Source: an uncultured Opitutales bacterium (GTDB lineage: Bacteria > Verrucomicrobiota > Verrucomicrobiia > Opitutales > Intestinicryptomonadaceae). Taken from it: a stretch of 64,000 nucleotides of DNA. This document shows positions 2,209 to 19,194 of the stretch, piece after piece; the stretch's first letter is position 1, and every line of letters begins with the position of its first letter. Location: positions 1 to 64,000 of the forward strand of contig CALXLX010000050.1 of NCBI GenBank assembly GCA_944389315.1. Reading direction: 5' to 3'. The translations under genes and the position numbers were made by a program. The notes under the pieces are model-generated. The model did no database searches. It worked only from the letters and a program-made list of their open reading frames with translations, and was not told the origin of the DNA.

Positions 2209-3765
2209 ATGAAGAAACTGTTTTTTATCGCGACGCTGCTTGCGCTCTACACAAATATTACCCATGCGGATATAACCATGCCGAAGATATTTTCAGACGG
2301 CATGGTATTGCAACAGACCTATCCCGCGGCCGTATGGGGAAAATCCTCGCCAAACGCAGAAATAGAGGTAGCGTTCTCCGGAAGGAAGCAAAAGACGAAG
2401 GCCGACGCCAACGGAGAATGGAAACTGTCTCTAAAACCGCTGAAAGCTTCCGCGACGCCCTCCGAGATGCTCATTTTTGAAAACGGCAAAGAGGCAAAGA
2501 AGATTTCCAACGTGCTCGTGGGAGAGGTTTGGATAGCCGGCGGGCAGAGCAACATGGAGTTCGCGTTGAGCACTATGAAAGACGCGGATAAAATCATCGA
2601 AGAAAACGCGTCAGACAATTTGCGCTTCTTCCTTCAATGGCCCTCAAACACCTTTTCAGATAAGCCGCAGTTCGACAACCCCAAAGGCTCTCAATGGGTG
2701 TCTGCAAAGGATAAGATCGGCTCGCCAAGCGCGGTTGCGTTCTTGTTTGCAAACGGCATAAGGAAGGCCTTCGACATTCCGATGGGAGTTGTGATGACCT
2801 CCATGAGCGGCACGTCGATGTACTCGTGGGTGCCTGAGAAGACGTTCTCCGAAGACCCCCGCATGGAGCACGAGAGGAAAGCATTTGAAAGGCGCAAAGC
2901 CTCATACAATTTTGACAAGGCGCTCGAGAAATGGACGAACGACAAGAAGAATTACGAGGAGAAAGTCGCCAAGGCAAAGGCCGAAGGCAAACCCGCGCCC
3001 AGTGCCCCGTACACCTTCTCCGTGCATTATCCTAGGAAGGACACTCCGGACGGTTTTAGGACGCCGACATGGCTTTACAACGGCAAAGTTGCGCCTGTTG
3101 CGGGATATTCGGCCCGCGGATTCATATGGTACCAGGGCGAGAACGACTCCAACAAGAAGCGGGAGCTTTTCGCGGACCAACTTTCGGCGCTGATAGACTC
3201 GTGGCGTTCCGCCTGGAGAAGGGCCAATATGCCGTTTTTAATTGTGCAGCTCCCCAGCTACACATCGAAAAACTGGCCGGAAATAAGGCTCGCGCAGGCG
3301 CAGGTTGCCAAAGAGGGCAAAAATGTGTTTACGGCGGTGGTATTCGACACCGGAGAGGAGAAGGACGTGCACCCGAAGGACAAGCTTAAAGTCGGCCAGA
3401 GGCTGGCAAACATAGCATTAAAGGAAGTCTACAGGCAAAAGAACGTGCACGCCTTCGGGCCCACTTTCAAGAGCGCGCAATACTCCCGCGGAACGGTCAG
3501 GGTTTCCTTCGATATGGACGGCTCAAGATTTGCAAGGCCCTCCGGAGACATAAAATGCTTCGAGATTTCCCTCGACGGAAAGAACTGGCTGGAGGCAAAT
3601 GCTAAAATAGTGTCCAACGACGCTCTGTCTGTCAGCGGCGGAGGCGGCGGGGAAATAGTCGGGGTTCGCTACGCCCACAAGGACTGGGCAAAACCGCATC
3701 TTAATTTGTTCGACGCAGACGGGTTGCCTACGGCGCCGTTTGAGGACATAAGAGAGGACAAATAA
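2209..3765 (+). CDS. Sialate O-acetylesterase-type (SASA family) esterase, paralogue 1
   Basis: The 518-residue protein has a signal peptide (residues 1-20), an N-terminal beta-sandwich region, and an SGNH/GDSL-like SASA domain. The nucleophile motif GGQSNM has Ser114, WYQGEND is at about 308-313, and the catalytic DVHPKDK carries His388. A Lys/Glu-rich helical insertion at about residues 215-265 separates the blocks. The family removes O-acetyl groups from sialic acids, and related enzymes act on acetylated xylan. This is the first of four tandem paralogues; the next starts 12 bases after the stop, so they are probably one transcript. No clear Shine-Dalgarno precedes the ATG. The exact substrate is unknown. 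Confidence 0.85.
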   Translation: MKKLFFIATLLALYTNITHADITMPKIFSDGMVLQQTYPAAVWGKSSPNAEIEVAFSGRKQKTKADANGEWKLSLKPLKASATPSEMLIFENGKEAKKISNVLVGEVWIAGGQSNMEFALSTMKDADKIIEENASDNLRFFLQWPSNTFSDKPQFDNPKGSQWVSAKDKIGSPSAVAFLFANGIRKAFDIPMGVVMTSMSGTSMYSWVPEKTFSEDPRMEHERKAFERRKASYNFDKALEKWTNDKKNYEEKVAKAKAEGKPAPSAPYTFSVHYPRKDTPDGFRTPTWLYNGKVAPVAGYSARGFIWYQGENDSNKKRELFADQLSALIDSWRSAWRRANMPFLIVQLPSYTSKNWPEIRLAQAQVAKEGKNVFTAVVFDTGEEKDVHPKDKLKVGQRLANIALKEVYRQKNVHAFGPTFKSAQYSRGTVRVSFDMDGSRFARPSGDIKCFEISLDGKNWLEANAKIVSNDALSVSGGGGGEIVGVRYAHKDWAKPHLNLFDADGLPTAPFEDIREDK

Positions 3766-3777
3766 AAAAATCTTTCC

Positions 3778-5349
3778 ATGAAAAAGCTCTCCGCATTCAT
3801 ACTCATACTGGCGTCCGCGGCCGTACTTTGCGCCGAAATAGCAATGCCGAAAATCTTCGGCGACAACATGGTTCTGCAGAGCGGAAAACCCGTAAAGGTT
3901 TGGGGAAAGGCCGACGCCAACTCTAAGGTGAGGGTATCCTACGCGGGCAAAAACGCCGAGGCAAAGGCCTCGGCTGACGGCTTGTGGAGCCTGCACCTGC
4001 CGCCGCTTGCCGCGTCCAAGAAGCCGGAGCAATTCAAGGTATTCGAGAACGGCAAAATCGCCAAGACTTTCTCAAACGTCCTTGCAGGAGAGGTTTGGAT
4101 AGCTGGCGGGCAGAGCAATATGGAATTTACAATCCGCAACAGCACGGATTTTGATGCCTTCAAGAAAAGAATGGCCGCCGAGCCGCAGAAATATTCTCTA
4201 ATAAGGTTCATAAAGCCCAAGAAGTCGAACATAAGCAAGACCAAGCTGTTCGACTTCGACTGCGACGCCGAGTGGACGGACATCGTGTCGAATCCGGATT
4301 TCAGGTTTTCGAGCGCGGTGGCATTTTATTTTGCCGAGAGGCTCGTAAACGAGCTGGACGTTCCGATAGGCCTTGTCATAACGCCGCTGGGGGGCTCGTC
4401 CATGACTGCGTGGGTTCCCGAGGAATTTTTAAAGGGCGAGCCCACCTTTGAGAGGGAGCTTGCCGCCTTCAACGAGAAACTTGCGACTTACGACTATCAA
4501 AAGGCGCTCGAGACATTCAACAGGAGGGTGGCCGAATACGAGGAGTCCGTCAAGGCGGCGAAGGCCGCGGGCAAACCCGAGCCTAAAAAGCCCTACGACC
4601 TTCAGCCCGTATGGACCCCAGACCCTATAACTCCGACGAACATCAGGTTTACGCCGGCGTGGCTGTACAACGCCAAGATTGCGCCCATTGCGGGATATAC
4701 CGCGCGCGGCGTCATCTGGTACCAGGGAGAGGCAAACCTTACGGGGAGGCTCGACGGCACGTTCACAAGCCGCTTCAACCGCCTAATGCAGGCCTGGCGC
4801 GCGGAATGGCAGGACGAAAATCTGCCCTTCATTTTTGCGCAGCTGCCGAGCTTCGGCAGGCAGAGGTCTTGGCCAGAGACGCGCTGGCAGCAGTTTGAGA
4901 GCTTCAAGCAGACGCCCAATTCCCACATAGTAATAACTATAGACACCGGCGAGGAAAACGACATACACCCCAAGCAAAAGACCCCCGTGGCAGACCGTTT
5001 TGCCCGCATAGCTTTGAATAAATACTACGGCAAGAACATAACCGCGTATGGCCCCCTGCCCGTATCTGCAAAATTCGACGCCGATAGCGCCGTGGTAAAG
5101 CTCGACTGCAAGACCGCGCTAAAATGCAGGGGCAATCCCCGCGGATTCGAGGCGCGTTCGGGCGGCAAATGGGTGGAGGCAAAAGCGCAGGTATCCCCCA
5201 AGGGATTCGTTAAAATAAGCTCCACCGACGGCGCAAAAATAGACGCGGTCAGGTACGCATGGTTCGACTGGGCTGTTCCGCAGGTGTGCCTGTTCGACTC
5301 GGAGGATCTGCCCGCGGCGCCTTTCGTATTTTTCAAGAACAACAACTAA
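3778..5349 (+). CDS. Sialate O-acetylesterase-type (SASA family) esterase, paralogue 2
   Basis: This 523-residue paralogue of the preceding gene has a signal peptide ending near residue 19 (VLCA). It keeps the nucleophile block GGQSNMEF (Ser113), WYQGEAN (about 314-320) and the catalytic block DIHPKQK (His397), so it should be active. The charged helical insertion is present and ends in the KAAGKPEPKKP-like linker shared with its neighbours. It lies 12 bases after paralogue 1 and 5 bases before paralogue 3. Secretion to the periplasm or cell surface is expected. Whether the four copies differ in substrate cannot be told by eye. Confidence 0.85.
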   Translation: MKKLSAFILILASAAVLCAEIAMPKIFGDNMVLQSGKPVKVWGKADANSKVRVSYAGKNAEAKASADGLWSLHLPPLAASKKPEQFKVFENGKIAKTFSNVLAGEVWIAGGQSNMEFTIRNSTDFDAFKKRMAAEPQKYSLIRFIKPKKSNISKTKLFDFDCDAEWTDIVSNPDFRFSSAVAFYFAERLVNELDVPIGLVITPLGGSSMTAWVPEEFLKGEPTFERELAAFNEKLATYDYQKALETFNRRVAEYEESVKAAKAAGKPEPKKPYDLQPVWTPDPITPTNIRFTPAWLYNAKIAPIAGYTARGVIWYQGEANLTGRLDGTFTSRFNRLMQAWRAEWQDENLPFIFAQLPSFGRQRSWPETRWQQFESFKQTPNSHIVITIDTGEENDIHPKQKTPVADRFARIALNKYYGKNITAYGPLPVSAKFDADSAVVKLDCKTALKCRGNPRGFEARSGGKWVEAKAQVSPKGFVKISSTDGAKIDAVRYAWFDWAVPQVCLFDSEDLPAAPFVFFKNNN

Positions 5350-5354
5350 AGATT

Positions 5355-6947
5355 ATGACCGCACGAATCTCCCGCAAGTATTTGGTTTTAGCCATTGCAG
5401 CATTGCACCTGGCCTTTGCTTCGGCATGGGCGACAGTGCGCACGCCAAAGATATTCTCCGACAACATGGTTTTGCAGGCTTTTGAGCCCGCAAAGATATG
5501 GGGCAGCGCAGACGCGAACTCCGCGATAAAGGTATCGGCGGGAAATGCGCACGCCGAAACCGTCGCCGATGAAAACGGGCAATGGAGCATTGCAATGCCC
5601 CCTATCAAGGCGGCTAAGACGCCTTTCGAGATACGCATATTTGAGAACGGCAAACTTGCAAAAACCATAAGAAACGTTCTGGCGGGAGAAGTATGGATAG
5701 CGGCGGGGCAGTCTAATATGTGGTGGCACATGAAAAATTCAGAGGGATTTGATCAGGCAAAGAAACGCCTGCCAAACGACATGCTGAGAATATTTGTGCA
5801 GCCGTCTGACGCAGTCGCAAAAGAGCCCCAGAAGGACTCTCCCGAGCAGGCGAAATGGGTGGAAGTATCCGCGGAAAACATCGGAGATTTCGGGGCGGTA
5901 TCCTACTTTTTCGGAGAGTTCCTCTCAGACAAGCTAGGCATGCCCGTGGGCATAGTAGAAACTTCAAGGCCGGGCTCAAGCATGGTGGCCTGGGTGTCCA
6001 GGCAGGACGCCAGAGGCGTCGAGAAGTTTGAAAAACAGACTGCAATATTCGACAAGGCGATGCAAAACTTCGACTACGCCTCCGCCGAAAAAAAGTACAA
6101 GTCCGATCTAACCTCCTTTGAAGAGCGGAAGGCCCGTGCAAAGAGCGAGGGCAAAACGTTTTCGGAAAGCCGTCCGCGCGCCCCGCACAAGATGGCGGGA
6201 AATACGAATATAGGTTCAGCCCCGGCGCTTCTTTACAATGCGAAGATAGCTCCTTTGGCAGGCTATACCGCCCGGGGAATCATCTGGTACCAGGGGGAAG
6301 GCGACAGCCGCAACATAGAAAACCGCTCCTTCGCCAAGAAGTTTGAAAGGCTTATAACCTCGTGGCGCAACGCATGGGGCAAACAGGACATGCCGTTTTT
6401 ATTCGTGCAGCTGACAAGCTACAGCACTACGGCGCAGTGGCCCCAGACGCGCTGGCAGCAATATGAAGTCTCTAAAAAACTCGGCGCGCCCATGGCGGTG
6501 ATAACGGACATAGGCGCGAAGAACGACGTGCACCCGCGGAACAAGAGAACCGTGGGTTCAAGGCTCGCAAATTTGGCGTTTGAAAGCGTGTACAAGATGA
6601 AGCTTGCGCAGCCCGCAAGAGCGCCGGTATTTAAGAATGTCAGGTATGCCGGAGCCTCGGCCGAAGTTGAGTTTGAATGTTTCGGCGGAAGCCTCAAGGC
6701 TAAGGGGGATCCGCGCGGCTTTGAGACTCTGGAAAACGGCAAGTGGACAACCCCTAAAATATCCCTAAAGGGAAACCGCGTTCTGCTTAAGTCCAAGGAC
6801 GGGCAAACCATAGACGCAGTCAGGTGCTTTTGGGAAAACTGGGCGGAGCCCAACCTCTGGCTTTTCGGATCCAACGGACTGCCCGCAATGGGCTGCATAG
6901 ACACTAAAAACCCCGAAGATTTGGAGGCGGAATCCGAAAAAGAATAG
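5355..6947 (+). CDS. Sialate O-acetylesterase-type (SASA family) esterase, paralogue 3
   Basis: From the ATG at 5355 the protein has 530 residues. An upstream in-frame start exists, but it lies inside paralogue 2 and would spoil the signal peptide (MTARISRKYLVLAIAALHLA). The blocks AGQSNM (Ser120), WYQGEGD and DVHPRNK are present. It differs from the other three copies right after the nucleophile block: QSNMWW instead of QSNMEF/QSNMEM, which replaces an acidic residue next to the active site. This may indicate a different substrate. A 201-base gap with no gene follows before paralogue 4, so this copy may end the first transcript. Confidence 0.83.
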   Translation: MTARISRKYLVLAIAALHLAFASAWATVRTPKIFSDNMVLQAFEPAKIWGSADANSAIKVSAGNAHAETVADENGQWSIAMPPIKAAKTPFEIRIFENGKLAKTIRNVLAGEVWIAAGQSNMWWHMKNSEGFDQAKKRLPNDMLRIFVQPSDAVAKEPQKDSPEQAKWVEVSAENIGDFGAVSYFFGEFLSDKLGMPVGIVETSRPGSSMVAWVSRQDARGVEKFEKQTAIFDKAMQNFDYASAEKKYKSDLTSFEERKARAKSEGKTFSESRPRAPHKMAGNTNIGSAPALLYNAKIAPLAGYTARGIIWYQGEGDSRNIENRSFAKKFERLITSWRNAWGKQDMPFLFVQLTSYSTTAQWPQTRWQQYEVSKKLGAPMAVITDIGAKNDVHPRNKRTVGSRLANLAFESVYKMKLAQPARAPVFKNVRYAGASAEVEFECFGGSLKAKGDPRGFETLENGKWTTPKISLKGNRVLLKSKDGQTIDAVRCFWENWAEPNLWLFGSNGLPAMGCIDTKNPEDLEAESEKE

Positions 6948-7148
6948 GCGCCTACCAGACGCCGCACATCTTCAGCCAAGCCGCCGCGCAAATACGCCGG
7001 GCAAGCCGCCCGCCAAGGTTGCGGGGAAAAGCGCGCGCATGCACCCTCGGCAAAAACCGCGAACATAAAACCCGGATAACCTCCATATATATATTCGGCT
7101 CGACAAGTCCGTCTCCGAGGCCTTTTATAAATAATAAAACATAAAACC

Positions 7149-8714
7149 ATGAAAAAGCTAATTGTCTTATCAATAGCGCTGGCGGCCATCGCGATGGCTG
7201 TAAACGCGGAAATTGTCATGCCGAAGATATTTTCGGACAATATGGTCATGCAGAGAAACGCCCCCGTAAAAATCTGGGGAAAAGCAGATCCGAACAGCCG
7301 GGTTGCCGTGGAGATAGGCAACATACGCAGGATAAGCGGAGCGGACAAGGACGGCTTTTGGAGCGTCACCCTGCCCCCGCTTCTGGTATCCGACAAACCG
7401 AGGGAATTGACCATTTATGAGAACGGGAAGCCCGCGCGGGTTATAGAAAACGTGCTCGTCGGCGAGGTATGGGTCTCGGGCGGGCAGAGCAACATGGAGA
7501 TGACACTCGGGGAGTCTAACGAATATGCCGAGGCAAAATCGAGGGCGGGGAAGAACTCCTCCTTCAGGATTTTCGAGCAGGGGCGCATAGATTTTTCCAA
7601 GGAAAGGCGCTGGGACTCGGCACCGCAATCGGGTTGGAGAATCGCCTCAAAGGAGGAGGTTGGCAAGTTCTCGGCCGTTGCGTACCTCTTTGGGGAGAAG
7701 CTTTTAAACGAGCTGAAAATGCCCGTAGGCATAATACAGACTTCCCTCGGCGGCACGAAGATGTGCTGCTGGCTCTCAAGAGAGGATATGAAGGGCGTTG
7801 AGGCCTTTGAAAAACAGATGGAGAATTTCGACTCTCAAATGGAGGGGTTTGAAGGCGAAACCGTAAAGCGCCTGGCCGCCGAATATGCAGCAAAGGTAGC
7901 AAAATACAACGAGGAAAAAGCCGCAGCGAAGGCCGCCGGCAAGCCCTTCAAAAAGCCGGCTCCCGGAAAATTTACGGAATACGGCAACAGGTACACCTTC
8001 CATATAATACCAGAGTACCTCTTTAACGCAAAGGTTGCGCCCCTGGCAGGATACACTGCAAAAGGCTTCATATGGTACCAGGGAGAGAGCGACGCCAACG
8101 CCGTAAACAACGACGATTTCGCAAAGATGTTCGGCCGCCTTATAACTTCGTGGCGCAAATACTGGGGCAACGACGACATGCCGTTTATATTCGTGCAGTT
8201 GACGAGCTATTCTACGCAGAACAAATGGCCGGAGACGAGGCTCCTGCAGGAGAAGACGGCGAAGGAGCTCGACGACGTTTACATGGCTGTGACGATAGAT
8301 CTGGGGGAGGAGAAAAACATACACCCCAAGGACAAGCCCGAGGTTGCCCGCAGAATGGCGATAATCGCCCTGGACAAGGTGTACGGCAAAGACATGGGAG
8401 ACATATCCTTCCCGGCTCTGGAGGAGGTATCTTACAATGGGTCCAAGGCAAAGCTGGAATTTGAGCTTGACGGGAAATTGAAGTTTGAAGGTTCCCCCCG
8501 CGGGTTCGAGACCCTTTCGGAAGGAAAGTGGAGCCAGGCAGACGCCAAGATAAGCGGAGAAAAAACGGTTGAAATATCCTCAAAGGACGGTTCCGCCGTG
8601 GAGGGAGTCCGCTATCTTTGGAAGTGCTGGGCAAAGCCCGACGCATGCCTGTTCGGGGAGAACGGCCTGCCGGCAGCTCCGTTTAGCGACAAGAAAGCCC
8701 TGAATCAGGACTAA
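7149..8714 (+). CDS. Sialate O-acetylesterase-type (SASA family) esterase, paralogue 4
   Basis: This 521-residue protein has a signal peptide (residues 1-20), GGQSNMEM (Ser114), WYQGESD and NIHPKDK (His392). The charged helical insertion is again present with the AAGKPFKKP linker. It is separated from paralogue 3 by 201 bases with an AT-rich end (TTTATAAATAATAAAAC), so it may have its own promoter. A good terminator follows 50 bases after the stop. All catalytic blocks are intact, so it is unlikely to be a decaying copy. Confidence 0.85.
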   Translation: MKKLIVLSIALAAIAMAVNAEIVMPKIFSDNMVMQRNAPVKIWGKADPNSRVAVEIGNIRRISGADKDGFWSVTLPPLLVSDKPRELTIYENGKPARVIENVLVGEVWVSGGQSNMEMTLGESNEYAEAKSRAGKNSSFRIFEQGRIDFSKERRWDSAPQSGWRIASKEEVGKFSAVAYLFGEKLLNELKMPVGIIQTSLGGTKMCCWLSREDMKGVEAFEKQMENFDSQMEGFEGETVKRLAAEYAAKVAKYNEEKAAAKAAGKPFKKPAPGKFTEYGNRYTFHIIPEYLFNAKVAPLAGYTAKGFIWYQGESDANAVNNDDFAKMFGRLITSWRKYWGNDDMPFIFVQLTSYSTQNKWPETRLLQEKTAKELDDVYMAVTIDLGEEKNIHPKDKPEVARRMAIIALDKVYGKDMGDISFPALEEVSYNGSKAKLEFELDGKLKFEGSPRGFETLSEGKWSQADAKISGEKTVEISSKDGSAVEGVRYLWKCWAKPDACLFGENGLPAAPFSDKKALNQD

Positions 8715-8763
8715 AACAGGCCGTACGGGCCACAAACTCCGGATTTTACTCCACGGAGGCAAA

Positions 8764-8796
8764 AGCGCCGACAAATACCGCTGTCGGCGTTTTTTT
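8764..8796 (+). terminator. Rho-independent terminator after the esterase array
   Basis: An 8-bp stem CGCCGACA / TGTCGGCG with an 8-base loop is followed by a run of seven T. It closes the SASA esterase group and separates it from the polysaccharide export genes. Confidence 0.85.
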
Positions 8797-8918
8797 GCGC
8801 TCCTGGCGGCGGCCTTCACGGTCATTATTGTGGCGTCTGGGGCAAAAGAGAGCGAAAATTGAGATGTAAAAAGTTTTATGTTGAAATTTTTCCAAATGGA
8901 CGGTTAGATTGGCTTCTT

Positions 8919-9533
8919 ATGATGAAATACATTTCAATTTGCGCCGCCACTTTTGCGGCGGTTCTTTTTGCGTGCACGCAGACTTTAACCGCCCAAACCA
9001 TGCCCACCCAACAGAATACAAAGACCTCGTTCAAATATAAGCTGAGGCCCTTGGACCTGTTGGAAATACGCGTCTTTCAGGAACCCGATCTGCAGAAGAC
9101 TGTGAGGGTTGCAGCCGACGGCACCATAGATCTTCCGCTGATAGGAAGGCTGGAGGTCAAGGGCCTGACCATACAGGAAGCGCAGGAAAAAATCAGGCAG
9201 CTGTACGATAAAGACTACATCGTCAACCCGCAGGTCAGCGTTTTTATCATGGAGTATTCCCCGCAGCGCGTACACGTAATAGGCCAAGTATATAAGAACG
9301 GCGAGGTGCGCTTTCCGCCCGAGGAGCGCATGACCTTGTCCAAGGCCATAGCCGACGCCGGCGGCCCAACGCGCATAGCGAACAAATCAAGCATAATAAT
9401 CAAGCGCAAGATGCCGGACGGCACCACCGCCACTTTCGAGCAAAACCTCAACAAAATTCTTTCCGACGAAAATACTGTGGATTTCCCTCTTGAAGACGGA
9501 GACACAATAGAAGTTAAGGAATCCATATTCTAA
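8919..9533 (+). CDS. Polysaccharide export protein, Wza-like (Poly_export + SLBB)
   Basis: The protein has a signal peptide (MMKYISICAATFAAVLFAC..AQT), a Poly_export domain (YKLRPLDLLEIRVFQEPDL, RVAADGTIDLPLIG, QVSVFIMEY) and one SLBB repeat (VHVIGQVYKNGEVRFP). It is about 204 residues, shorter than Wza of E. coli (about 380), which has more SLBB repeats and a C-terminal helix. It may form the periplasmic collar of an export channel. The ATG pair at 8919/8922 fits the signal peptide; a longer in-frame start at 8859 does not. The tyrosine autokinase gene follows after 25 bases, the normal partner of this protein. Confidence 0.87.
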   Translation: MMKYISICAATFAAVLFACTQTLTAQTMPTQQNTKTSFKYKLRPLDLLEIRVFQEPDLQKTVRVAADGTIDLPLIGRLEVKGLTIQEAQEKIRQLYDKDYIVNPQVSVFIMEYSPQRVHVIGQVYKNGEVRFPPEERMTLSKAIADAGGPTRIANKSSIIIKRKMPDGTTATFEQNLNKILSDENTVDFPLEDGDTIEVKESIF

Positions 9534-9558
9534 TAAAACACAATTATAATAGCTTCAG

Positions 9559-11964
9559 ATGAGCCAGACATCAGACTCCAAGGACAATTCACTCAGCAAA
9601 GACACCGCGAATAAGGTGTCCGCATCGACAAAGGTTATAAAGAAGAAGAAGGTGGTCTCCTCCGGCTACGGCGGCGGATACGGCGGCGGTTACGGGGGCT
9701 ACGGCGGTGGATACGGCGGCTATGGCGGCGGATACGGCGGTAGCTATGGCGGCGGTTATGGCGGCGGATACGGCGGAAACTACGGCAGCTACGCGCAGTC
9801 CACAATGCCTAACAGAACCTTCAAGGACTATATGATGACTTTGAGGGAGCGCTTCTGGTACATAGTGGTGACGTTTTTCATCATATTTTTGGGCGTATTG
9901 CTGTACACGTACAGGCTGACTCCTATGTTCACTTCGGAGGCGTCGCTGCAGATTTTGCGCGATACGGACAACCCCATAGAGATGAAGGAGCGCGAAACCA
10001 GGAACAACACCATCTCCAATACGGAGGACTTCAACACGCAGGTCAAGATTCTGGATTCGTGGGAGCTTGTAAGGCTCGTGAAGTCGCGCTTGAAGGAGGA
10101 CGAGCAGAAGCGCCTGATGGCCCCCTACCACGACATGTTCACATTCGGCCCGAAGCGCACGATAGAGGAGGTCCTATACGAGAACAAACGCGTGTATCCC
10201 GAGAGGATGTCTTTGATAGTGAAGGTATCCTACACGCATCCCGACAGTTTGATAGCATCGAGAATCGCAAACCTCTTTGCAACCGAATACACTAACTTCA
10301 CCCAGCAGATGAGGGTTCAGAAGGTGTTGGATTCCATAGACGAGCTTAGGATGAAGGTCTCCCAGCAGGACGCCAAGGTCAAGGAGCTCGACAAGAAGCT
10401 TGTCGATTACCGGGACAAGAACGGCGCCGTAAGCCTCGAGCAGATAGACGACATAGACCGCAGAGAGGCCGCGAGGCTCTCCGACATGCTCACGACAGAA
10501 AAAGGCACCCTGGATCTCGTACAGGCCCAGTGGGACGCCGTGAACCAGCTGAAGCGCGAAGGCAAGGACCTTACGCAGCTGCCCTTCATAGCAGATTTGC
10601 CTTCCGTATCGCAGCTTATGGGCACGCGCGCCAACCAGCAGATACTCATAGCAGGCTTGGAGAAGCGCTATAGGGAAAAGCACCCGACCATGCTTGCGGC
10701 AAAGAAGACTCTCGACCAGATAAACAAGGAGTTGTCAGACGCCATAGAGCTTGCCGTCAAGAAGTTAAACTCCAATTACGAGACGGCGAAGGCCTCTTAC
10801 GAGCAGGCGCAAAAGCGCGTCGCGCAGAAGCAGGAGGAGATACTGGATCTCGGCAAAAAGGCGGTTGCCTACAAGGCGATAGAGAGAGACAGGAATGTCG
10901 CAGAGAGCATGCATCTTGAGTTCATATCGCAGTTGAACAAGAATATGGCCAAGGTGAGCATGATTTCCGCCGGAGCGCAAATCATAGACAGAGCCGTGCC
11001 GAGCGGAAGGCCGTCTAGCCCGAATTACATTATAAACATAGGCCTTGGCTTTTTCGCTGCCCTACTCGGCGGCATCGGAATGGCCTTACTCGTGGCATTC
11101 TTGGACGACAGGGCGAAGAGCTCCTACGACATAGAAAACATAATAGGCGTGCCCCTGCTGGGCATAGTTCCCAGGGTGAAGCGCCTAAACTCCACGGAAA
11201 AGGCGCAGATTGCAGCTTCCAATGCGGACAGAACCTCTATGGAGGCATTCAGGGCCCTGCATTCTACAATGAAGGTCAGCGCTGTGGGCAAGAACGCAAA
11301 AGTTCTGTTGTTCACGAGCACGATGCCTTCGGAGGGCAAATCTTTCTGCATAACAAACCTTGCGTTCACGTCGGCTATAAACGGCGAGAAGACGATAATC
11401 ATAGACGCGGACTTCCGCCTGCCGGCGATAGCAAAGACTCTCGGCATAGAATCGGACAAGGGAATGATATCCTTCATGGAGGGCAAATGCTCGTTCGACG
11501 AGGCGCTCCACAAGAATTATTTCCCGAATATGGACGTTCTTTGCTGCGAGCGCCGCGCGGCGAATCCTACCCAGATAATCAACTCCGAAAAGTTCATAAA
11601 GCTTCTCGAGAGCCTGAGGGAGAGCTACGACAAGATATTCATAGACACCCCGCCCATCGGAGCCGTCAGCGACGTAATATCCATGCTGCCTCTGGCGGAC
11701 GGAGTTGTGTATGTAGTGAAGTTCAACAGCATAAAGCGCAAAACCATAAAGGCGTATGTGCGCCGCATAATGGAGTCGAACACTCCGATTGTCGGAGTAA
11801 TAATGAACATGGTCAGCCTCTCCTCCGCATCCTTGTACAGCAGCTCCGGATACTACGACAAGCAGTATAAGGACTACTACACGGAGCCGCCCGCCATAGA
11901 GACCGACGTCCCCGAACAGGAGGACGGCAGCTCCAAAAAGGCAAAAGGCATAGAGGAGCTTTGA
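9559..11964 (+). CDS. Wzc-like polysaccharide co-polymerase with tyrosine autokinase domain and Gly-Tyr-rich N-terminus
   Basis: The 801-residue protein combines a Wzz chain-length domain (first TM about 98-120, second TM about 490-515), a long periplasmic coiled coil (about 250-460) and a C-terminal BY-kinase domain. Walker A is TMPSEGKSF (Lys594), Walker A' is IIIDADFRLP and Walker B is KIFIDTPPIG. The C-terminus carries a tyrosine cluster (LYSSSGYYDKQYKDYY), the usual autophosphorylation tail. Unusually, residues 36-78 are almost only Gly and Tyr (12 Tyr, mostly GGGY units). This tract lies on the cytoplasmic side, before the first helix. The family controls length and export of capsule or exopolysaccharide together with Wza. 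Confidence 0.93.
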   Translation: MSQTSDSKDNSLSKDTANKVSASTKVIKKKKVVSSGYGGGYGGGYGGYGGGYGGYGGGYGGSYGGGYGGGYGGNYGSYAQSTMPNRTFKDYMMTLRERFWYIVVTFFIIFLGVLLYTYRLTPMFTSEASLQILRDTDNPIEMKERETRNNTISNTEDFNTQVKILDSWELVRLVKSRLKEDEQKRLMAPYHDMFTFGPKRTIEEVLYENKRVYPERMSLIVKVSYTHPDSLIASRIANLFATEYTNFTQQMRVQKVLDSIDELRMKVSQQDAKVKELDKKLVDYRDKNGAVSLEQIDDIDRREAARLSDMLTTEKGTLDLVQAQWDAVNQLKREGKDLTQLPFIADLPSVSQLMGTRANQQILIAGLEKRYREKHPTMLAAKKTLDQINKELSDAIELAVKKLNSNYETAKASYEQAQKRVAQKQEEILDLGKKAVAYKAIERDRNVAESMHLEFISQLNKNMAKVSMISAGAQIIDRAVPSGRPSSPNYIINIGLGFFAALLGGIGMALLVAFLDDRAKSSYDIENIIGVPLLGIVPRVKRLNSTEKAQIAASNADRTSMEAFRALHSTMKVSAVGKNAKVLLFTSTMPSEGKSFCITNLAFTSAINGEKTIIIDADFRLPAIAKTLGIESDKGMISFMEGKCSFDEALHKNYFPNMDVLCCERRAANPTQIINSEKFIKLLESLRESYDKIFIDTPPIGAVSDVISMLPLADGVVYVVKFNSIKRKTIKAYVRRIMESNTPIVGVIMNMVSLSSASLYSSSGYYDKQYKDYYTEPPAIETDVPEQEDGSSKKAKGIEEL
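9664..9792 (+). repeat. Gly-Tyr codon repeat in the Wzc-like gene
   Basis: About eleven degenerate units encode GGGY, GGY, GGSY or GGNY. The codons vary (GGC, GGA, GGT, GGG; TAC and TAT), so the DNA repeat is imperfect while the protein pattern is kept. Confidence 0.9.
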
Positions 11965-11994
11965 TTCAAGAAAAGACGACTCGCATAAGTTTGC

Positions 11995-12024
11995 AAAAAG
12001 GCGGCCCATTGGGCCGCCTTTTTT
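11995..12024 (+). terminator. Rho-independent terminator after the Wzc-like gene
   Basis: A strong stem AAAAAGGCGGCCCA / TGGGCCGCCTTTTT with a one-base or larger loop is followed by T. It ends the export operon 30 bases after the stop. Confidence 0.88.
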
Positions 12025-12290
12025 GTCGGGATAAACCGGAATGTTTGATGTGAATAGGGAAAGGTAAAAGGTTGCAGCCGCAAGGGCGGGGGGAAAGCTG
12101 CAAGCAAAATGTGGGACGGGAAAATCCCCCTATAACGCGCGAATTTCGGGACTCTGCTCAGGGGCAAGAAGTGGCGCTGCCCGCGCAATGGTTAGATCTC
12201 TTGCGCGCGGCTGGCTCGGGAAAAGCGGGAGCAAAGGTTTAAAATCTTTGAAATTGCATAATGGGAGTTTTCGCCTAACATGCGCGCACA
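12025..12290. other. Intergenic stretch without a recognisable gene
   Basis: Together with the terminator, about 326 bases separate the kinase gene from the next one. The short open frames have poor composition. I see no RNA gene and no convincing promoter, though the part just before 12291 (TTTAAAATCTTTGAAATTGCATAAT) is AT-rich and may hold the promoter. Confidence 0.5.
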
Positions 12291-13400
12291 ATGAAAAACA
12301 ATGCGAAGAAATTCTCCTTGCTGATGGCTGCTGCATCGGTGTGCATATTGGCACTGTCCACGGCCTGTTCGAGCGTAAAGGCGCCAAAAGACGCCGAAAC
12401 TATGGGGGTAATTTTACCGTTATCGGAGTTGTCTCCCGACTCGGAGACGGCGAACTCCGTAAAGAGGGGAATGATGCTCGCCCAAAAGCGCATAAACACC
12501 GAGGGAGGCATAGGCGGCAAACGCCTCGAGATAATATTCAAGGATGCCGGCAAAGATTATTTTGAGACAGGGCAAACCATAAGGGCCATGGCCGATTCCG
12601 GCATAAAATTTCTCCACTTGGGCTTCACCAACCAGATTATTTTTGAGATGCCGGATTTAAAGGACAGGGAGGATTTGCTCATAAATTATCTGGGCACCTA
12701 CCCTCCGGCCACGGTTTCAAATAAAAATTCGGTGAGGATATTTCTCAACGGCGCGCAAATTGCGTTGCTTATGGCAACCGCTTACGAAAACCCGAGGAAA
12801 GAGGAGGTGCGCGTGGTCATACTAAACAATGCGGACAACTCCTGCAAGAGCTCGGCGGACTATCTGTCGTTTGAAATAAAGGACGAGAAGACAAAAATAT
12901 ACCGGGACATATACTCCCGCGGGGAGAAGAATTTTGAGATATTCGCATCCCAAATCATGCGGCTTAACGCCCCCTATTTTTTCAACTACGGATACGCGCC
13001 AGAAGCAGACAAACTTCTATCCGCGCTGACAAAGGCGGGATACAAGGGAACCTTTGTATCAAACGCCTTGGGCAATGAGTCCGGATTGGCGATAAACGGA
13101 GATATAAAAATATTCTCGGTTAAGACGGATTTCGAGCTCGGGAAAGTCAAGACGAGCGAAAATGCCGAATTTACAAAAGCCTACAAGGCCGAGTATTCCG
13201 CAGAGCCAAATTGGGCGGCGGCGTACGGATACGATTCGGTGGTGCTTTTCGCAAAAGCCATGCGCGAGGCAAATGGCGATACGAAAAAGGCGAGGGAATT
13301 TTTCCTAAATAAAAGTTTTGAATGTGCGGTCGGCAAAATAACGTTCGACTCCATGGCCGACTCCACCTCGGAGCTATCACTCGAAAGGCTAACGAAGTAA
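12291..13400 (+). CDS. Orphan ABC-type substrate-binding lipoprotein (Peripla_BP_6 / LivK-like)
   Basis: The 369-residue protein begins with a lipoprotein signal peptide whose lipobox is LSTAC (Cys at about residue 26). The following fold is that of branched-chain amino acid or amide binding proteins: MGVILPLSELSPDSE, then GMMLAQKRINTEGGIGGKRL, FKDAGKD, and a C-terminal part with NWAAAYGYDSVVLFAKAM. The family binds amino acids, amides or urea. No permease or ATPase gene is near, so it may work with a distant transporter or act as a sensor or envelope factor; LpoA uses a similar fold. comEC begins 6 bases after the stop. Confidence 0.8.
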   Translation: MKNNAKKFSLLMAAASVCILALSTACSSVKAPKDAETMGVILPLSELSPDSETANSVKRGMMLAQKRINTEGGIGGKRLEIIFKDAGKDYFETGQTIRAMADSGIKFLHLGFTNQIIFEMPDLKDREDLLINYLGTYPPATVSNKNSVRIFLNGAQIALLMATAYENPRKEEVRVVILNNADNSCKSSADYLSFEIKDEKTKIYRDIYSRGEKNFEIFASQIMRLNAPYFFNYGYAPEADKLLSALTKAGYKGTFVSNALGNESGLAINGDIKIFSVKTDFELGKVKTSENAEFTKAYKAEYSAEPNWAAAYGYDSVVLFAKAMREANGDTKKAREFFLNKSFECAVGKITFDSMADSTSELSLERLTK

Positions 13401-13406
13401 GCGCTT

Positions 13407-15179
13407 GTGCCTTACCCCTATAAAAGACAGGATAGCACAGCAAGCGTATCCGAGGACGCCGAAGCAGACTTCAAAGCGGCAAATCTGGCGCGCTCCTCGG
13501 CGCCTGCGCTTGTCTTGCTTGCCCCAGCTTGCCTCGGCTTTATTGCGGCAGGAATATTTGAATTTCCCAAAACTGCGCGTGCTGCAGAACTTTTCGCCCT
13601 ACTCTTCTTTTCGGGCATATTTTTAAGCGCGGTGTTTTACCGCGCAAGAACCCGCAGGGCGGCGATAATCAGGGCGTGGACAAAGAAAATTTCTATTTTC
13701 GGGCTGGTGTTTTTTGCGGCGATTATGCGTTTTGGAATGGGCGACAAAACCGCTGGAGGCGCAGATCCGTTTCCGGCGGCCGAAGCCGCGGCAAGACTGA
13801 GAATAATATCAGCCACCCCCACTTCCTACGGCGGCGTATGCGGCAGGGCTGTCATAGAGGACATAGTATTGGACCCCGGCCCGGACTATGGGTGCAATCT
13901 GTCCATAGCCGACTCTGAATGCGAAAGATTCAAAGGGACAAAAGTCTGGTACAATTTCTACAACGACAGAAAGCGCACTCAGAAGATAGCGCTGACCCCG
14001 TCGGAAAGCGTGCAGGCCTTCGGCGCCATTTGCCCGCCTGCTAAGGATAAGGACTCATTTTCAAGATACCTTTACTACAACGGATTCTCCGGAACTTTCT
14101 CCGCATATATAGCAAACTGCAAGGCAGTTTCTCCGCCAGACGGCATGAGGGGTTTTTTCGCGGAGGCGGCCGGATACGTGAACAAAGTGCTCTCTAAATC
14201 GTACTTCAGCTCGAATCCCGAGATTGCAACGGCAAACAAGACCTACAGGGCGATGATACTCGGAGACAAGAGCCTGCTTGGGAGGGAAGCTAAGGATATC
14301 TATTCAAAGACAGGCGTAATGCACATATTCGCCGTAAGCGGCCTGCATATAGCCACCTTCGCCCTGGCGCTGGCTTTCGTGCTGCGGCTGATAAGGATTC
14401 CCTGGAGGTGGAGCCTGCTGGTATGCGCGCCGTGCGTATTTTTCTACGCGGGCATATGCTCGTTTCCGCCGTCGGCAATGCGCGCGGCAGCAATGATAAC
14501 TTTCGTGTGGGGGCTCTGCGCGCTGATGAGAAAGCCAAAAACCTTGGCGGCTCTTGTGCTCTCGGCGCTCGTCTTTCTGTCAATATGGCCAAGGCAGGTC
14601 TTCGACGCCGGATTTGCCCTGTCCTACTGCGCGGTGGCGGCCATAATAATTTACGGGGTTCCGCTGTCGGAATTTCTGTCGGAGAAAATGCGCCCGTTCA
14701 AACTCCTGCCGGAAAGCGCCATGGGGCCGGCGGGCAAGCTTGCCGCAAGGCTTTCGGATACGCTTTGGGGAGGCTTTGCGATAGCATTTGCCGCGTCGTT
14801 TGCGAGCGCCCCGCTGACGCTTTATTTCTTCGGGATATGCGCTCCTTTTGCGGTGTTCTACTCCGTCGTGTATGTCATAGGGGCGTCGTTTTGCGTCTGC
14901 TGCGCGCTTGCGGCTATGCTGATTGCGCCTTTGGCAAAAATACCCAACACCGCGGCGGAATTGGTCTCTCTTGCGCTCGACCGCGCCGCAGAATTTATCA
15001 ACTCCTTAAATCTTTGCGTGGAGGCTGACATAAAATCCTATATAGCAGCTATAGCCGCAGAGGCGGCCTTTCTTGCAACCGCGCAGATTCTCGCCTCAAA
15101 CGGAGCCGGCAAACGGGCATTTTTCATAATTCCGCCCGTCGCGGGAGCCTGCGCTACATTTGCGGCTTGCCTGTTTTAG
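13407..15179 (+). CDS. comEC: ComEC/Rec2-family DNA uptake channel protein
   Basis: The 590-residue polytopic protein has two N-terminal hydrophobic helices, a soluble DUF4131-like part and the Competence domain with the signature HIFAVSGLHIATF (near bases 14323-14361). Some ten transmembrane segments follow. The protein ends after the membrane part, so the C-terminal metallo-beta-lactamase domain found in many ComEC proteins is missing. The start is a GTG at 13407, 6 bases after the preceding stop. The family forms the inner-membrane channel for single-stranded DNA in natural transformation. No other competence gene is in the window. Confidence 0.87.
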   Translation: MPYPYKRQDSTASVSEDAEADFKAANLARSSAPALVLLAPACLGFIAAGIFEFPKTARAAELFALLFFSGIFLSAVFYRARTRRAAIIRAWTKKISIFGLVFFAAIMRFGMGDKTAGGADPFPAAEAAARLRIISATPTSYGGVCGRAVIEDIVLDPGPDYGCNLSIADSECERFKGTKVWYNFYNDRKRTQKIALTPSESVQAFGAICPPAKDKDSFSRYLYYNGFSGTFSAYIANCKAVSPPDGMRGFFAEAAGYVNKVLSKSYFSSNPEIATANKTYRAMILGDKSLLGREAKDIYSKTGVMHIFAVSGLHIATFALALAFVLRLIRIPWRWSLLVCAPCVFFYAGICSFPPSAMRAAAMITFVWGLCALMRKPKTLAALVLSALVFLSIWPRQVFDAGFALSYCAVAAIIIYGVPLSEFLSEKMRPFKLLPESAMGPAGKLAARLSDTLWGGFAIAFAASFASAPLTLYFFGICAPFAVFYSVVYVIGASFCVCCALAAMLIAPLAKIPNTAAELVSLALDRAAEFINSLNLCVEADIKSYIAAIAAEAAFLATAQILASNGAGKRAFFIIPPVAGACATFAACLF

Positions 15180-15228
15180 TTCTTGAAACGAAGGCGCCCA
15201 TTTACTTTAATTTTCAAAATCTATAAAA

Positions 15229-16290
15229 ATGATGGACGTATTTTACGAGAAAGTCTTAAGGCCCATACTTTTCAAGCAGGATCCCGAAACGATGCACGAG
15301 CTTGCTCTGAAAGTATGGAGAATTTCCGCGGCCATACCCCCGCTCAGGGCGGCTATGGAGACGCTTAATCTTGTGCACACGCAAAAGCCCATAAAAGTAT
15401 TCGGGCTGAACTTTCCCAACCAGATAGGGCTTGCTGCCGGATTCGACAAGGACGCAAGATGCTGGAGGGCGGCGGCGGCTTTCGGATTCGGGCATGCAGA
15501 GATAGGGACTATAACGCGCCACAAGCAGTCCGGAAACCCAAAGCCGAGGATATTCCGCTATCCTGAGAGCGAGGCCGTGGTAAACGCCTGCGGATTCCCC
15601 AACGAGGGGGCGGAAGCCATCGCAAAACGCTTGGACAAATGCCCGCCTAAGTCAAAGAGGAAGGTTCCTCTCGGGATAAACATAGGCAAATCCAAGATAA
15701 CGCCTCTCGACGAGGCTGCCGAGGATTATGTCTTCAGCTTCAACACCCTTGCCGACTATGCGGACTTTTTTGTAATCAACGTAAGCAGCCCCAACACGCC
15801 TGAGCTGCGCAGGCTCCAGGGGGCGGACTATCTTCCCGCCCTGCTCGGCGAGATAAGGAAGGCTAATTTGGACAGGGCAAAGAAGCTCGGCGCGCCGAAG
15901 ATTCCGATAGTGCTGAAAATTGCCCCGGATCTTACTTTCAGGGAGATAGACGCAATTCTTTCCATTTTGTTCGAGCTTGAGTTCGACGGAATTTGCGCGA
16001 CAAACACCACCGTTTCGCGCCCGATAGAAGGCATGGAAAGCATAGGCGGCCTGAGCGGCAGGCCGCTTTCGAAGATGTCTTTGGACATTGTCAAATACAT
16101 ATCGAAGGCGACCAACGGCAACCTTCCCATCATAGGGGTCGGGGGCGTGGTCGACGAGGATAGCGCCGGGCGCCTGGCAAATGCCGGGGCTACTCTCATA
16201 CAGGTCTACACCGGAATGATTTACAGGGGGCCGTTCTTCGCCAAGGCTTTGGCAAACGCCCTGAAGTGGCGCTACAGCGACTGGGTATAA
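15229..16290 (+). CDS. pyrD: Dihydroorotate dehydrogenase (quinone), class 2
   Basis: The 353-residue protein has the N-terminal helical extension of class 2 enzymes (FYEKVLRPILFKQDPETMHELALKV), which docks on the inner membrane and takes quinone. FMN-binding segments are GLAAGFDKDARCW, EIGTITRHKQSGNPKPRIFR and NACGFPNEGAE. The catalytic serine is in NVSSPNTPELRRLQ. IGVGGVVDEDSAGRL and TLIQVYTGMIYRGP close the barrel. It oxidises dihydroorotate to orotate in pyrimidine synthesis. efp follows 40 bases later on the same strand. There is no Shine-Dalgarno; the leader is CTATAAAA directly before ATG. Confidence 0.95.
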   Translation: MMDVFYEKVLRPILFKQDPETMHELALKVWRISAAIPPLRAAMETLNLVHTQKPIKVFGLNFPNQIGLAAGFDKDARCWRAAAAFGFGHAEIGTITRHKQSGNPKPRIFRYPESEAVVNACGFPNEGAEAIAKRLDKCPPKSKRKVPLGINIGKSKITPLDEAAEDYVFSFNTLADYADFFVINVSSPNTPELRRLQGADYLPALLGEIRKANLDRAKKLGAPKIPIVLKIAPDLTFREIDAILSILFELEFDGICATNTTVSRPIEGMESIGGLSGRPLSKMSLDIVKYISKATNGNLPIIGVGGVVDEDSAGRLANAGATLIQVYTGMIYRGPFFAKALANALKWRYSDWV

Positions 16291-16330
16291 ACTTTCATCA
16301 TAAGAAACAACAATACGACAAAACAATATT

Positions 16331-16888
16331 ATGGCATCACCCACAGACATAAGAAAAGGCAGGGTAATAATGTACAACGGCACTCCGCATGCGGTAATGA
16401 GCATGCTGCACCGCACGCAGGGCAGGCAGGCGGGGTTCGTTCAGACGACGCTTAGGAATCTCGAGACCGGCACGTCAACCACAACGAAGTTCCGCTCCAC
16501 GGACTCCGTGGAATTTTGCATGACCACGAACAAGCCGCTGGATTTCTCCTATGTTGACGCCGACGGGTACCACTTCATGGATCCGGACACTTTCGACGAC
16601 ATAGTTCTGCCCGAGAGCATCGTTGGCGAGGACAAGCATTGGATAGCCGAGGGGCACTCCTACCCCGTACTTTTTGTGGACGACAAGCCCGTATCGATAG
16701 AGCTTCCCAACACCATAGAGATGAAGGTTGCCGAGTCTGCCGAGGGCGTAAGGGGAGACACCTCCAGCGCGCCGATGAAGCCCGCCACTTTGGAAAACGG
16801 CGTAATCATACAGGTGCCGCTTTTCATAAAGGCAGGCGACGTAGTCAGGATACGCACTGAGGACGAAACTTATTTAGGCAGGGCATAG
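16331..16888 (+). CDS. efp: Translation elongation factor P
   Basis: The 185-residue protein shows the three-domain EF-P pattern, with IRKGRVIMYNGTPHAV at the start, TKFRSTDSVE at the end of domain I, and GVIIQVPLFIKAGDVVRIRTEDETYLGRA at the C-terminus. EF-P helps ribosomes stalled at proline stretches. The loop that carries the modified residue reads HRTQGRQAGF, so the E. coli-type lysine is absent and Arg32 takes the tip, as in the Pseudomonas form. Nine of its eleven Ile codons are ATA and six of ten Arg codons are AGG, which is odd for a highly expressed gene. argA follows closely. Confidence 0.95.
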   Translation: MASPTDIRKGRVIMYNGTPHAVMSMLHRTQGRQAGFVQTTLRNLETGTSTTTKFRSTDSVEFCMTTNKPLDFSYVDADGYHFMDPDTFDDIVLPESIVGEDKHWIAEGHSYPVLFVDDKPVSIELPNTIEMKVAESAEGVRGDTSSAPMKPATLENGVIIQVPLFIKAGDVVRIRTEDETYLGRA

Positions 16889-16905
16889 GCGCTTTGCCTA
16901 CCGAT

Positions 16906-18267
16906 ATGAGCCAGAACCCGACGTCTTTGGACACTTCTCCGGCGGGCAAGATTCCCCTGCTTAAGGCTTCGGACTTGCGCGCGATATTGGAGTATGTGCC
17001 TCTATACAGGAATCAGACTTTCGTAATAGCCATAGACGGAAGCGTCATAGAGTGCGACAATTTCTCCGATGTAATAACGGACATCGCCGTACTCAGGTCC
17101 CTGAACATCAGCGTTGCGCTGGTCCACGGCATAGGCAAGCAGCTCAAGGACGCGGGGGCTAAGGCAGGCGTAAAGCTCAGCGACGTTTACGGGAACAATC
17201 CCGTCGACGACGCCACTTTTGCCCTTGCGCACGACATATCCGCGCAGGTTCTGCAGACCGTGCGCGACGCGTTTGCCGCGCACGATTTAAACTGCGTGAC
17301 AACAAATGCCATACGGGCCACTGAGGTTGGGATAATTTCCGGGGTTGACTATATGAACGCCGGCCGCACTGAAAAGATAGATTTCCCGTCCATAAAGGAG
17401 CTGTTAAAGCTGGGAATGATACCGGTGTTTTCTCCCATAGCCACGGGGAGGGACGGCAGGATATTCAGGATAAATTCCGACCTTTTGGCGGCGGAGCTGG
17501 CGTCGGGGCTGCACGCCTCAAAGCTCATATATCTCACGGAGACCAGCGGGCTTTCGATAGACGACGGCAGGCCTGTGGCCATACCTGTAGACAAGCTTCA
17601 GGAGATGATAGCCACAAACCGCGACAGGATAGATCCGAGGGTGTTTTCAAAGGCAAACTGCGCCGCGAAGATTCTGGATCCGTCTAAGACTCCGCGGGCG
17701 CACATTCTCGACGGAAGGCGTTTTGCGTGCCTGCTGACGGAGCTTTTCGATAAGGTCGGCTGCGGCACCATGATATATTGCGACGAGTACCAAAAGATAC
17801 GCCCCGCCACCATGGACGACGCCCGCACTATATGGAACATATCCCAGGTTTCCTCCAAGGAGCAAAACCTTGTGGACAGAACTCTCGAGTATATAGAGAG
17901 CACTATAGGCCGCTATTTTGTCTACGAGGTTGACGGAAGCATAATAGGCTTTGTAAGCCTGCTCGATTTGGGCGACGGAAACGCCGAGCTCGCAAGCCTG
18001 CACGTTCAGGAATTTTACCGCAACAACGGTGTGGGCACTAAGCTCGTCGATTTTGTCGTAATGAAGGCGAAGCAATCCGGATACAAGCGCCTTTTTACGC
18101 TCAGCACAAAAAGCGCGCCCTTCTTCAAGGCCGTATGCGGTTTCGCAGAGGTTCCAAGTTCAGCACTGCCGCCCAAAAGGCTTGAGAAGTACGAGCAGTC
18201 GAAGAGAAACTCAAGGGTGTTTCTCAAGAACCTCCGTGAAGAGCCCGGCGCAGGCGATATGCAGTAA
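16906..18267 (+). CDS. argA: Amino-acid N-acetyltransferase (N-acetylglutamate synthase)
   Basis: The protein (about 453 residues from the ATG at 16906) has an amino acid kinase-like domain (VALVHGIGKQL, the early part of the fold) and a C-terminal GNAT domain with the acetyl-CoA signature EFYRNNGVGTKLVDFVVM. This order is that of bacterial ArgA, which acetylates glutamate in the first step of arginine synthesis and is inhibited by arginine through the kinase-like domain. A TTG at 16894 is in frame, but the ATG is the better start. It lies 17 bases after efp. No other arginine synthesis gene is nearby. Confidence 0.9.
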   Translation: MSQNPTSLDTSPAGKIPLLKASDLRAILEYVPLYRNQTFVIAIDGSVIECDNFSDVITDIAVLRSLNISVALVHGIGKQLKDAGAKAGVKLSDVYGNNPVDDATFALAHDISAQVLQTVRDAFAAHDLNCVTTNAIRATEVGIISGVDYMNAGRTEKIDFPSIKELLKLGMIPVFSPIATGRDGRIFRINSDLLAAELASGLHASKLIYLTETSGLSIDDGRPVAIPVDKLQEMIATNRDRIDPRVFSKANCAAKILDPSKTPRAHILDGRRFACLLTELFDKVGCGTMIYCDEYQKIRPATMDDARTIWNISQVSSKEQNLVDRTLEYIESTIGRYFVYEVDGSIIGFVSLLDLGDGNAELASLHVQEFYRNNGVGTKLVDFVVMKAKQSGYKRLFTLSTKSAPFFKAVCGFAEVPSSALPPKRLEKYEQSKRNSRVFLKNLREEPGAGDMQ

Positions 18268-18306
18268 TTTCTGCGGGAATAGTTTTCCCATATATTTCAT
18301 GCGCTC

Positions 18307-18312
18307 AGGAGG
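18307..18312 (+). promoter_or_regulatory. Shine-Dalgarno AGGAGG before the TTG start of the esterase
   Basis: A perfect AGGAGG lies six bases before TTG 18319. Few genes here have such a site, so it decides in favour of the TTG start. Confidence 0.5.
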
Positions 18313-18318
18313 AAAGGC

Positions 18319-19194
18319 TTGAATTGGAGCGCCCGGCCGCATATTTATAATGGAATGAAGCTTGCCTATAAAATTGCCTCTTTTGCTGCATTATGGTGTT
18401 GTTTTTCGGCATTGCTGCTTGCTGAGGAATCTTTTAAGCTATTTAAGGATTTGAGCTATGTCTCCTCCGGAGACGGTTACCGCATGGAGCGCTGCCTTTT
18501 GGATATATATGCGCCAAAGGACAGGAAAAATTACAGCGTATTTGTGTGGTTTCATGGGGGAGGCATCTCGTCTGGTGAAAAGCATCTGTTTCCTAAAGAC
18601 TTTCCGGGAAAAGGCATAGGGGTAGTTGCGGTCAATTACAGGCTTTCCCCAAAAATAAAAGCCAACGAAGCCATATGGGACGCTGCCGAAGCGGTGGCGT
18701 GGGTGCTCGATAATATTGAGAAATTCGGAGGGAATCCAAATTGTGTTTTTATAGGCGGACATTCCGCCGGGGCTTATTTGGCGGGCATGGTAGGATTTGA
18801 CCCACGATATCTGGCGAAATTTGGCCGCAAGAATACAGACATAGCCGGGATGTGCCTAATCAGCGGCCAGATGACTACCCATTTCCAAGTTAAGAGGGAT
18901 TTGAAATATCCCGGAAGCCAATTCCGGCCCGTCATAGACAAATATGCCGTTTTAAATTTTGTGGAAAACGACATTTCCCCGCTTTTGATAGTGACCGGAG
19001 ACGACGAGCTTGAATGGCCGTGCAGAGTGGCTGAAAATAGGCTTCTGATAGCAAGCGTAAGGAAGATTGCAAAGAGCCCTCTGGCGCGCATGTTTGTTTT
19101 GGGAGGCTACGGGCACGACTGCGCAAAGCCGAGCGAAGGGCTCATTTTCAATTTTATATCCGATTGCCTAAAGCAGCATAAACCCGAAAAATAG
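18319..19194 (+). CDS. Secreted alpha/beta hydrolase (esterase/lipase, BD-FAE-like)
   Basis: The protein has the oxyanion-hole motif WFHGGGISSGEK, the nucleophile elbow GGHSAGAYLAG, a likely acid at GDDELEWP and a likely His at GGYGHDCAK. The pattern matches the carboxylesterase group that contains feruloyl esterase-like BD-FAE enzymes. A signal peptide is seen from MKLAYKIASFAALWCCFSALLLAEE. Two starts are possible. A TTG at 18319 has a rare clear AGGAGG six bases before it and adds 12 residues; an ATG at 18355 gives a standard signal peptide. I list the TTG because of its ribosome site, with doubt. No operon partner is evident. Confidence 0.75.
   Translation: MNWSARPHIYNGMKLAYKIASFAALWCCFSALLLAEESFKLFKDLSYVSSGDGYRMERCLLDIYAPKDRKNYSVFVWFHGGGISSGEKHLFPKDFPGKGIGVVAVNYRLSPKIKANEAIWDAAEAVAWVLDNIEKFGGNPNCVFIGGHSAGAYLAGMVGFDPRYLAKFGRKNTDIAGMCLISGQMTTHFQVKRDLKYPGSQFRPVIDKYAVLNFVENDISPLLIVTGDDELEWPCRVAENRLLIASVRKIAKSPLARMFVLGGYGHDCAKPSEGLIFNFISDCLKQHKPEK

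Follow-up and report, generated by a model that had tools for sequence, protein, structure and literature searches.

The window (the whole stretch of 64,000 nucleotides analyzed here, from an uncultured Opitutales bacterium) carries a gene for a Wzc-like tyrosine kinase, present as a single copy in the 2.27 Mb draft assembly and directly preceded by a gene for an outer-membrane export protein. The pair and the features of the kinase are as follows.

8859–9533, + strand: OPX (Wza-like) outer-membrane polysaccharide export protein (Pfam Poly_export 2e-24, SLBB), adjoining the kinase on its 5' side
9559–11964, + strand: Wzc-like BY-kinase / PCP-2a polysaccharide co-polymerase, 801 aa (Pfam Wzz and AAA_31 above cut-off)
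9631–9651, + strand: Lys patch KVIKKKK (aa 25–31), just N-terminal of the tract, window's family only
9664–9792, + strand: Gly-Tyr-rich tract (aa 36–78) with 12 Tyr, predicted disordered (AlphaFold pLDDT about 20–25 over residues 1–80)
9811–9852, + strand: juxtamembrane helix NRTFKDYMMTLRER (aa 85–98; model helix 88–97), kept across orthologues
9853–9918, + strand: TM1 (aa 99–120; model helix 99–120, hydropathy)
11023–11100, + strand: TM2 (aa 489–514; model helix 489–514)
11314–11343, + strand: Walker A TSTMPSEGKS (aa 586–595), BY-kinase type
11395–11418, + strand: Walker A' IIIDADFR (aa 613–620), BY-kinase type
11635–11655, + strand: Walker B IFIDTPP (aa 693–699), BY-kinase type
11836–11880, + strand: C-terminal cluster of six Tyr (Y760, Y765, Y766, Y770, Y773, Y774), the usual BY-kinase autophosphorylation tail

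A preliminary description of this DNA had recognized a Wzc-like tyrosine kinase. This identity was borne out by Pfam, by NCBIfam TIGR01007 (133.6 bits, cut-off 108), by a PDB search that returned Wzc (7nhr, 2.3e-33) and by the Walker A, A' and B motifs, which no orthologue with an intact gene lacks. The Pfam Wzz match begins at residue 90, and the domain lies between the two TM helices (99–120 and 489–514) of a low-confidence model; GNVR also matches the periplasmic domain, at 21.6 bits and thus under its cut-off of 27.7. The ExxRxxR oligomerization motif reads EAFRALH (aa 562–568, window positions 11242–11262), with the last Arg replaced by His. This terminal Arg was not found at its place in the orthologues and is present in 14 of the 19 kinases examined outside the order. 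Judged by its sequence features, the protein is a member of the BY-kinase family in everything except this last residue of the motif.

The same description had placed a Gly-Tyr-rich tract with 12 Tyr at residues 36–78, on the cytoplasmic side ahead of the first membrane helix, and had set it apart from a C-terminal cluster of six Tyr. The position is exact, 12 of the 43 residues are Tyr, the tract precedes TM1 (its side being assigned by homology), and the cluster (Y760–Y774) is separate. The tract itself, GYGGGYGGGYGGYGGGYGGYGGGYGGSYGGGYGGGYGGNYGSY, further comprises 28 Gly, 2 Ser and 1 Asn. An AlphaFold run from six sequences was of low confidence (pLDDT 60.6, pTM 0.32) and supports only disorder and helix positions; in this model, residues 1–87 are predicted to be disordered, and the juxtamembrane helix (88–97), about 10 residues from the tract, is followed by TM1. 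In the Lys patch, K29 and K31 are invariant in an alignment of six sequences of the window's family, and no such patch was seen in the N-termini of orthologues from other families. Tyr residues of the window's tract are spaced much more evenly than in shuffled sequences (variance 0.20 versus a mean of 8.4, none of 500 shuffles being as low), with no Tyr-x-Tyr (spacing 2) among them. The tract thus combines predicted disorder, Tyr 'stickers' with Gly/Ser spacers, and even spacing.

For comparison, 54 relatives were searched together with 388 genomes from the phylum. With the regions fetched, this gave 70 orthologues; a further 20 kinases are paralogues within the order, and 19 belong outside it. 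The preliminary description had proposed to look for similar N-terminal tracts in BY-kinases. Of the 70 orthologues, 69 carry one, located after the start of the protein and before the juxtamembrane helix; they span 16 families of a single order (Opitutales). The OPX gene lies immediately 5' of the kinase in 69 of 70 as well. The sole tract-less orthologue (L074; G156 C6:285400–289100, in a 1.7 Mb genome) is a gene broken by frameshifts: its tract is partly out of frame (AVVTAMVAVIMATVAATAAATAAV), a Gly-Tyr reading is visible in another frame, and the chain breaks off near query residue 482, reflecting either decay or an assembly error. The median of the maximum number of Tyr per 30 N-terminal residues is 8 in orthologues, 2 in paralogues (5 of the 20 had no automatically scored N-terminus) and 1 outside the order. 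At the other end, the median per 25 C-terminal residues is 8 in all three sets alike.

A phylogenetic tree built without the tract columns places the 68 tract-bearing rows of the order, from 16 families, in one clade (SH-aLRT 100). The paralogues (L079–L098) form a separate clade, are 25–30% identical and have ordinary linkers at the same position instead of a Gly-Tyr N-terminus, although they share the architecture, a similar juxtamembrane helix and 6–9 C-terminal Tyr per 25 residues. Since these paralogues do without the tract while having the same C-terminal cluster, kinase action does not depend on it. Beyond the order, related kinases of the phylum lack the tract, with one exception. This lone carrier outside the order (L099; G368 C53) belongs to a different order of the same class; it is a BY-kinase with 27% identity and has a Gly-Tyr N-terminus (HTNSGYGGYGYGYTGAYGYN) at aa 21–42. 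It stands apart from the order's clade, and two changes are therefore needed on the tree; its tract represents either a separate origin or old inheritance, the sample being one genome of its order. Plasmid-borne BY-kinases showed no such tract in the four with a clean N-terminus and two with longer extensions, plasmid matches in general beginning after the tract position. Neither of two kinase-less Wzz proteins of the order has one. We also considered a class-wide Gly-Tyr pattern and dropped it: apart from L099, what matched outside the order was a secretin-like ORF, small proteins that appear to carry signal peptides, and the like. Two of the small Gly-Tyr-rich proteins with apparent signal peptides (L122 and L126) come from other families of the class and are unrelated to the kinases.

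Across the orthologues, tract length varies from 6 to 59 residues and Tyr number from 3 to 18; the order of residues varies and the sequences are unalignable between families. Such variation, together with the imperfect tandem array in the DNA, is what one would expect of a passive spacer or a by-product of replication slippage, that is, of a tolerated low-complexity linker whose exact residues are immaterial. However, such a linker should drift toward Ser, Ala, Asp, Phe, His and Cys, whereas the pooled tracts (2,124 residues) are 50% Gly and 31% Tyr throughout the 16 families, with 653 Tyr, 13 His and no Phe, Cys or Trp. Codons for Phe, His and Cys are one base away from those for Tyr. Outside the tracts, Phe outnumbers Tyr in these proteins, the latter making up 42% of Tyr plus Phe. 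The spacing is also biased. Tyr residues are mostly 2–4 residues apart (modal spacing 3), and they are more even than in shuffled sequences in 64 of 66 tracts, 31 of them at P<=0.05; these tests are not independent, as the sequences are related and the tract limits were set by a scoring rule, and the evenness may stem in part from shared ancestry and tract delimiting. The preliminary description had named variable length without conservation in relatives as something that would refute its reading. The length does vary, yet the tract is kept in nearly all orthologues with a constant composition. As read from the sequences, this pattern is the mark of selection on residue composition and spacing rather than on the exact sequence.

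Selection had originally been argued from synonymous codon variation. Selection at the protein level stands, by virtue of the comparative data on which the case rests; the codon argument itself turned out to be weak. Codons of the tract are indeed mixed (Gly GGA/GGC/GGG/GGT 5/18/1/4; Tyr TAC/TAT 9/3), which counts against a passive slippage product, as do the ordinary linkers of the paralogues. Nevertheless, imperfect tandem arrays with 12-, 21- and 33-base units (74–80% matches) remain, and the longest internal repeat of 20 nt is within the range of random synonymous coding (P 0.11). Codon variation alone therefore shows no more than that slippage did not produce the array recently. Slippage as the whole story is ruled out by the order-wide composition of the tract, and we consider the passive explanation in general very improbable. 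The spread over an entire order in one clade, the fixed composition, and the absence in paralogues, outside kinases (one excepted) and the few plasmid kinases sampled, all of them groups that keep the C-terminal cluster, make the tract a maintained trait and not a slippage accident. Because the corresponding kinase bears such a tail across the whole order, the tract is very probably functional.

As its possible function, the preliminary description had named a further phosphorylation target or a self-association region, of which either may apply. Both are best considered against E. coli Wzc. There, the cytoplasmic helix alpha1 (residues 17–30) comes before TM1. It lies against alpha23, where the Tyr tail has its root, and passes tail phosphorylation on to the membrane (PMC8285477, PMC11986026). 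The Tyr tail enters the active site of the neighboring subunit, and phosphorylation causes alpha23 to unwind from alpha1, which turns the membrane part and finally splits the octamer (PMC8285477, PMC11986026). The tail ratchet uses Tyr-x-Tyr spacing, and for control it is the extent of phosphorylation that matters and not any single Tyr (PMC11986026). By its position, we propose the juxtamembrane helix of the window's kinase (aa 85–98) as the likely equivalent of alpha1 (PMC8285477).

The tract might accordingly be mainly a kinase substrate, phosphorylated by the neighboring subunit; the negative charge added at alpha1 would then push the octamer toward disassembly or bring in a partner, with no self-association involved. 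The strict preference for Tyr over Phe (653:0) fits such a second phospho-tail, as do its link to active-type kinases (Walker motifs are intact, and the kinase-less Wzz proteins lack it), its location about 10 residues from the helix that touches the known phospho-tail root (PMC8285477) and the control by extent in E. coli (PMC11986026). Yet the modal spacing is 3 rather than the ratchet's 2, and although spacing 2 is common in other orthologues (152 of 584 intervals), its absence from the window's tract weakens the simple view of a second copy of the C-terminal tail. Even spacing is unnecessary for a substrate. Moreover, no trade-off with the number of C-terminal Tyr was found: a raw rank correlation of -0.56 vanished under phylogenetic contrasts (r -0.16, P 0.26). 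On balance, we regard a purely phosphorylated tail as rather doubtful.

Alternatively, the tail could only cluster octamers or bind a partner (Wzy, Wzx, the initiating transferase or the cytoskeleton), kinase activity being irrelevant. Gly spacers, even Tyr and predicted disorder fit sticker-and-spacer sequences, and stickers consisting of Tyr only are known from Gly-Tyr low-complexity segments, that of FUS among them, which also speaks for this alternative. FUS-type segments share with the tract the short flexible spacers between Tyr, the lack of Phe and the predicted disorder; the window's tract, known here from sequence, is far shorter and is fused to a membrane-anchored bacterial tyrosine kinase. 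However, no homotypic partner was seen: the only other GGYGGYGG site in the assembly is a chance match in a TolC-like ORF, and we discarded this route to partners, the pattern being strict and looser Gly-Tyr proteins falling outside it. In addition, a Tyr-rich tail so close to a ring of tyrosine kinases would hardly escape phosphorylation. A tail that acts solely by unmodified contacts thus seems unlikely to us.

Our favored reading, to which we assign a probability of only about 0.4, is a sticker tail open to modification by the kinase. It draws on the tract with its order-wide conservation and composition bias, the intact kinase motifs, the upstream OPX gene and the LMW phosphatase genes. 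A disordered tail of stickers that the kinase ring can reach is the best reading because the tract lies beside the putative equivalent of alpha1, the relay of tail phosphorylation in E. coli Wzc. On this view, the Wzc-type BY-kinase would have a disordered 'second tail', attached at the putative alpha1. Before phosphorylation, an octamer would have about eight tails (about 96 Tyr) arranged around its kinase ring. Weak, multivalent contacts between Tyr residues would link these tails to one another, to neighboring octamers or to partner proteins and would help to keep the export assembly together. We infer that the tails can reach the active sites, each other and adjacent octamers, in which case the kinase would most likely phosphorylate some tract Tyr. 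Phosphorylation would loosen the tail contacts during octamer disassembly, and the tail would be reset by an LMW phosphatase. The octamer, the sticker contacts, their modification and the presumed effect on polysaccharide export are all inferred, and the data favor neither tract phosphorylation nor condensation over the other. Against the combined reading stand the missing Tyr-x-Tyr in the window's tract and the lack of an N/C-terminal trade-off once relatedness is allowed for; against a sticker array in particular stand orthologues with as few as 3–5 Tyr.

Export of capsule and exopolysaccharide is controlled mainly by Wzc-type kinases, for which current models invoke, to our knowledge, the C-terminal Tyr tail only. 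We found no report of an order-wide N-terminal Gly-Tyr tail in the open-access literature. A second Tyr-rich tail on the phosphorylation-relaying helix, kept throughout an order, would add an input to the export switch and offer a compact test of whether bacterial tyrosine phosphorylation controls sticker-type assembly. Going further, one might envisage a class of two-tailed BY-kinases in which the tail clusters export octamers and kinase phosphorylation dissolves the clusters, amounting to a membrane condensate controlled by tyrosine phosphorylation; we consider this improbable.

The closest parallels differ at the N-terminus. Vibrio cholerae VpsO/VpsU is likewise a BY-kinase with a 6-Tyr C-terminal tail and an LMW phosphatase controlling exopolysaccharide, but the 'N-terminal extension' described there is a segment after TM2 and not a Tyr-rich tail before TM1 (PMC7485978). 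E. coli Wzc (PCP-2a, PDB 7NHR series) shares with the window's protein the Wzz periplasmic domain between two TM helices, the Walker A/A'/B motifs, the C-terminal Tyr cluster, a Wza-type gene upstream and an LMW-PTP encoded in the genome. Its N-terminus is short, with alpha1 starting at residue 17 (PMC8285477), whereas in the window's protein about 85 residues, half of them the Gly-Tyr tract, precede the putative alpha1. Unlike in E. coli, the genes for the initiating transferase (PF02397) and the LMW phosphatase reside on other contigs of the same genome (C16:4062 and C43:30044). LMW-PTP (PF01451) is present in 21 of 23 genomes; CpsB/CapC phosphatase is absent from all 23 and was dropped as a candidate partner of the kinase. 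Among the flanking ORFs scanned (2209–19194), none was recognized as a polysaccharide-synthesis gene. Directly upstream of the OPX-kinase pair (2209–8714, + strand), four genes for SASA-family (PF03629) sialic-acid-type acetylesterases lie in a row.
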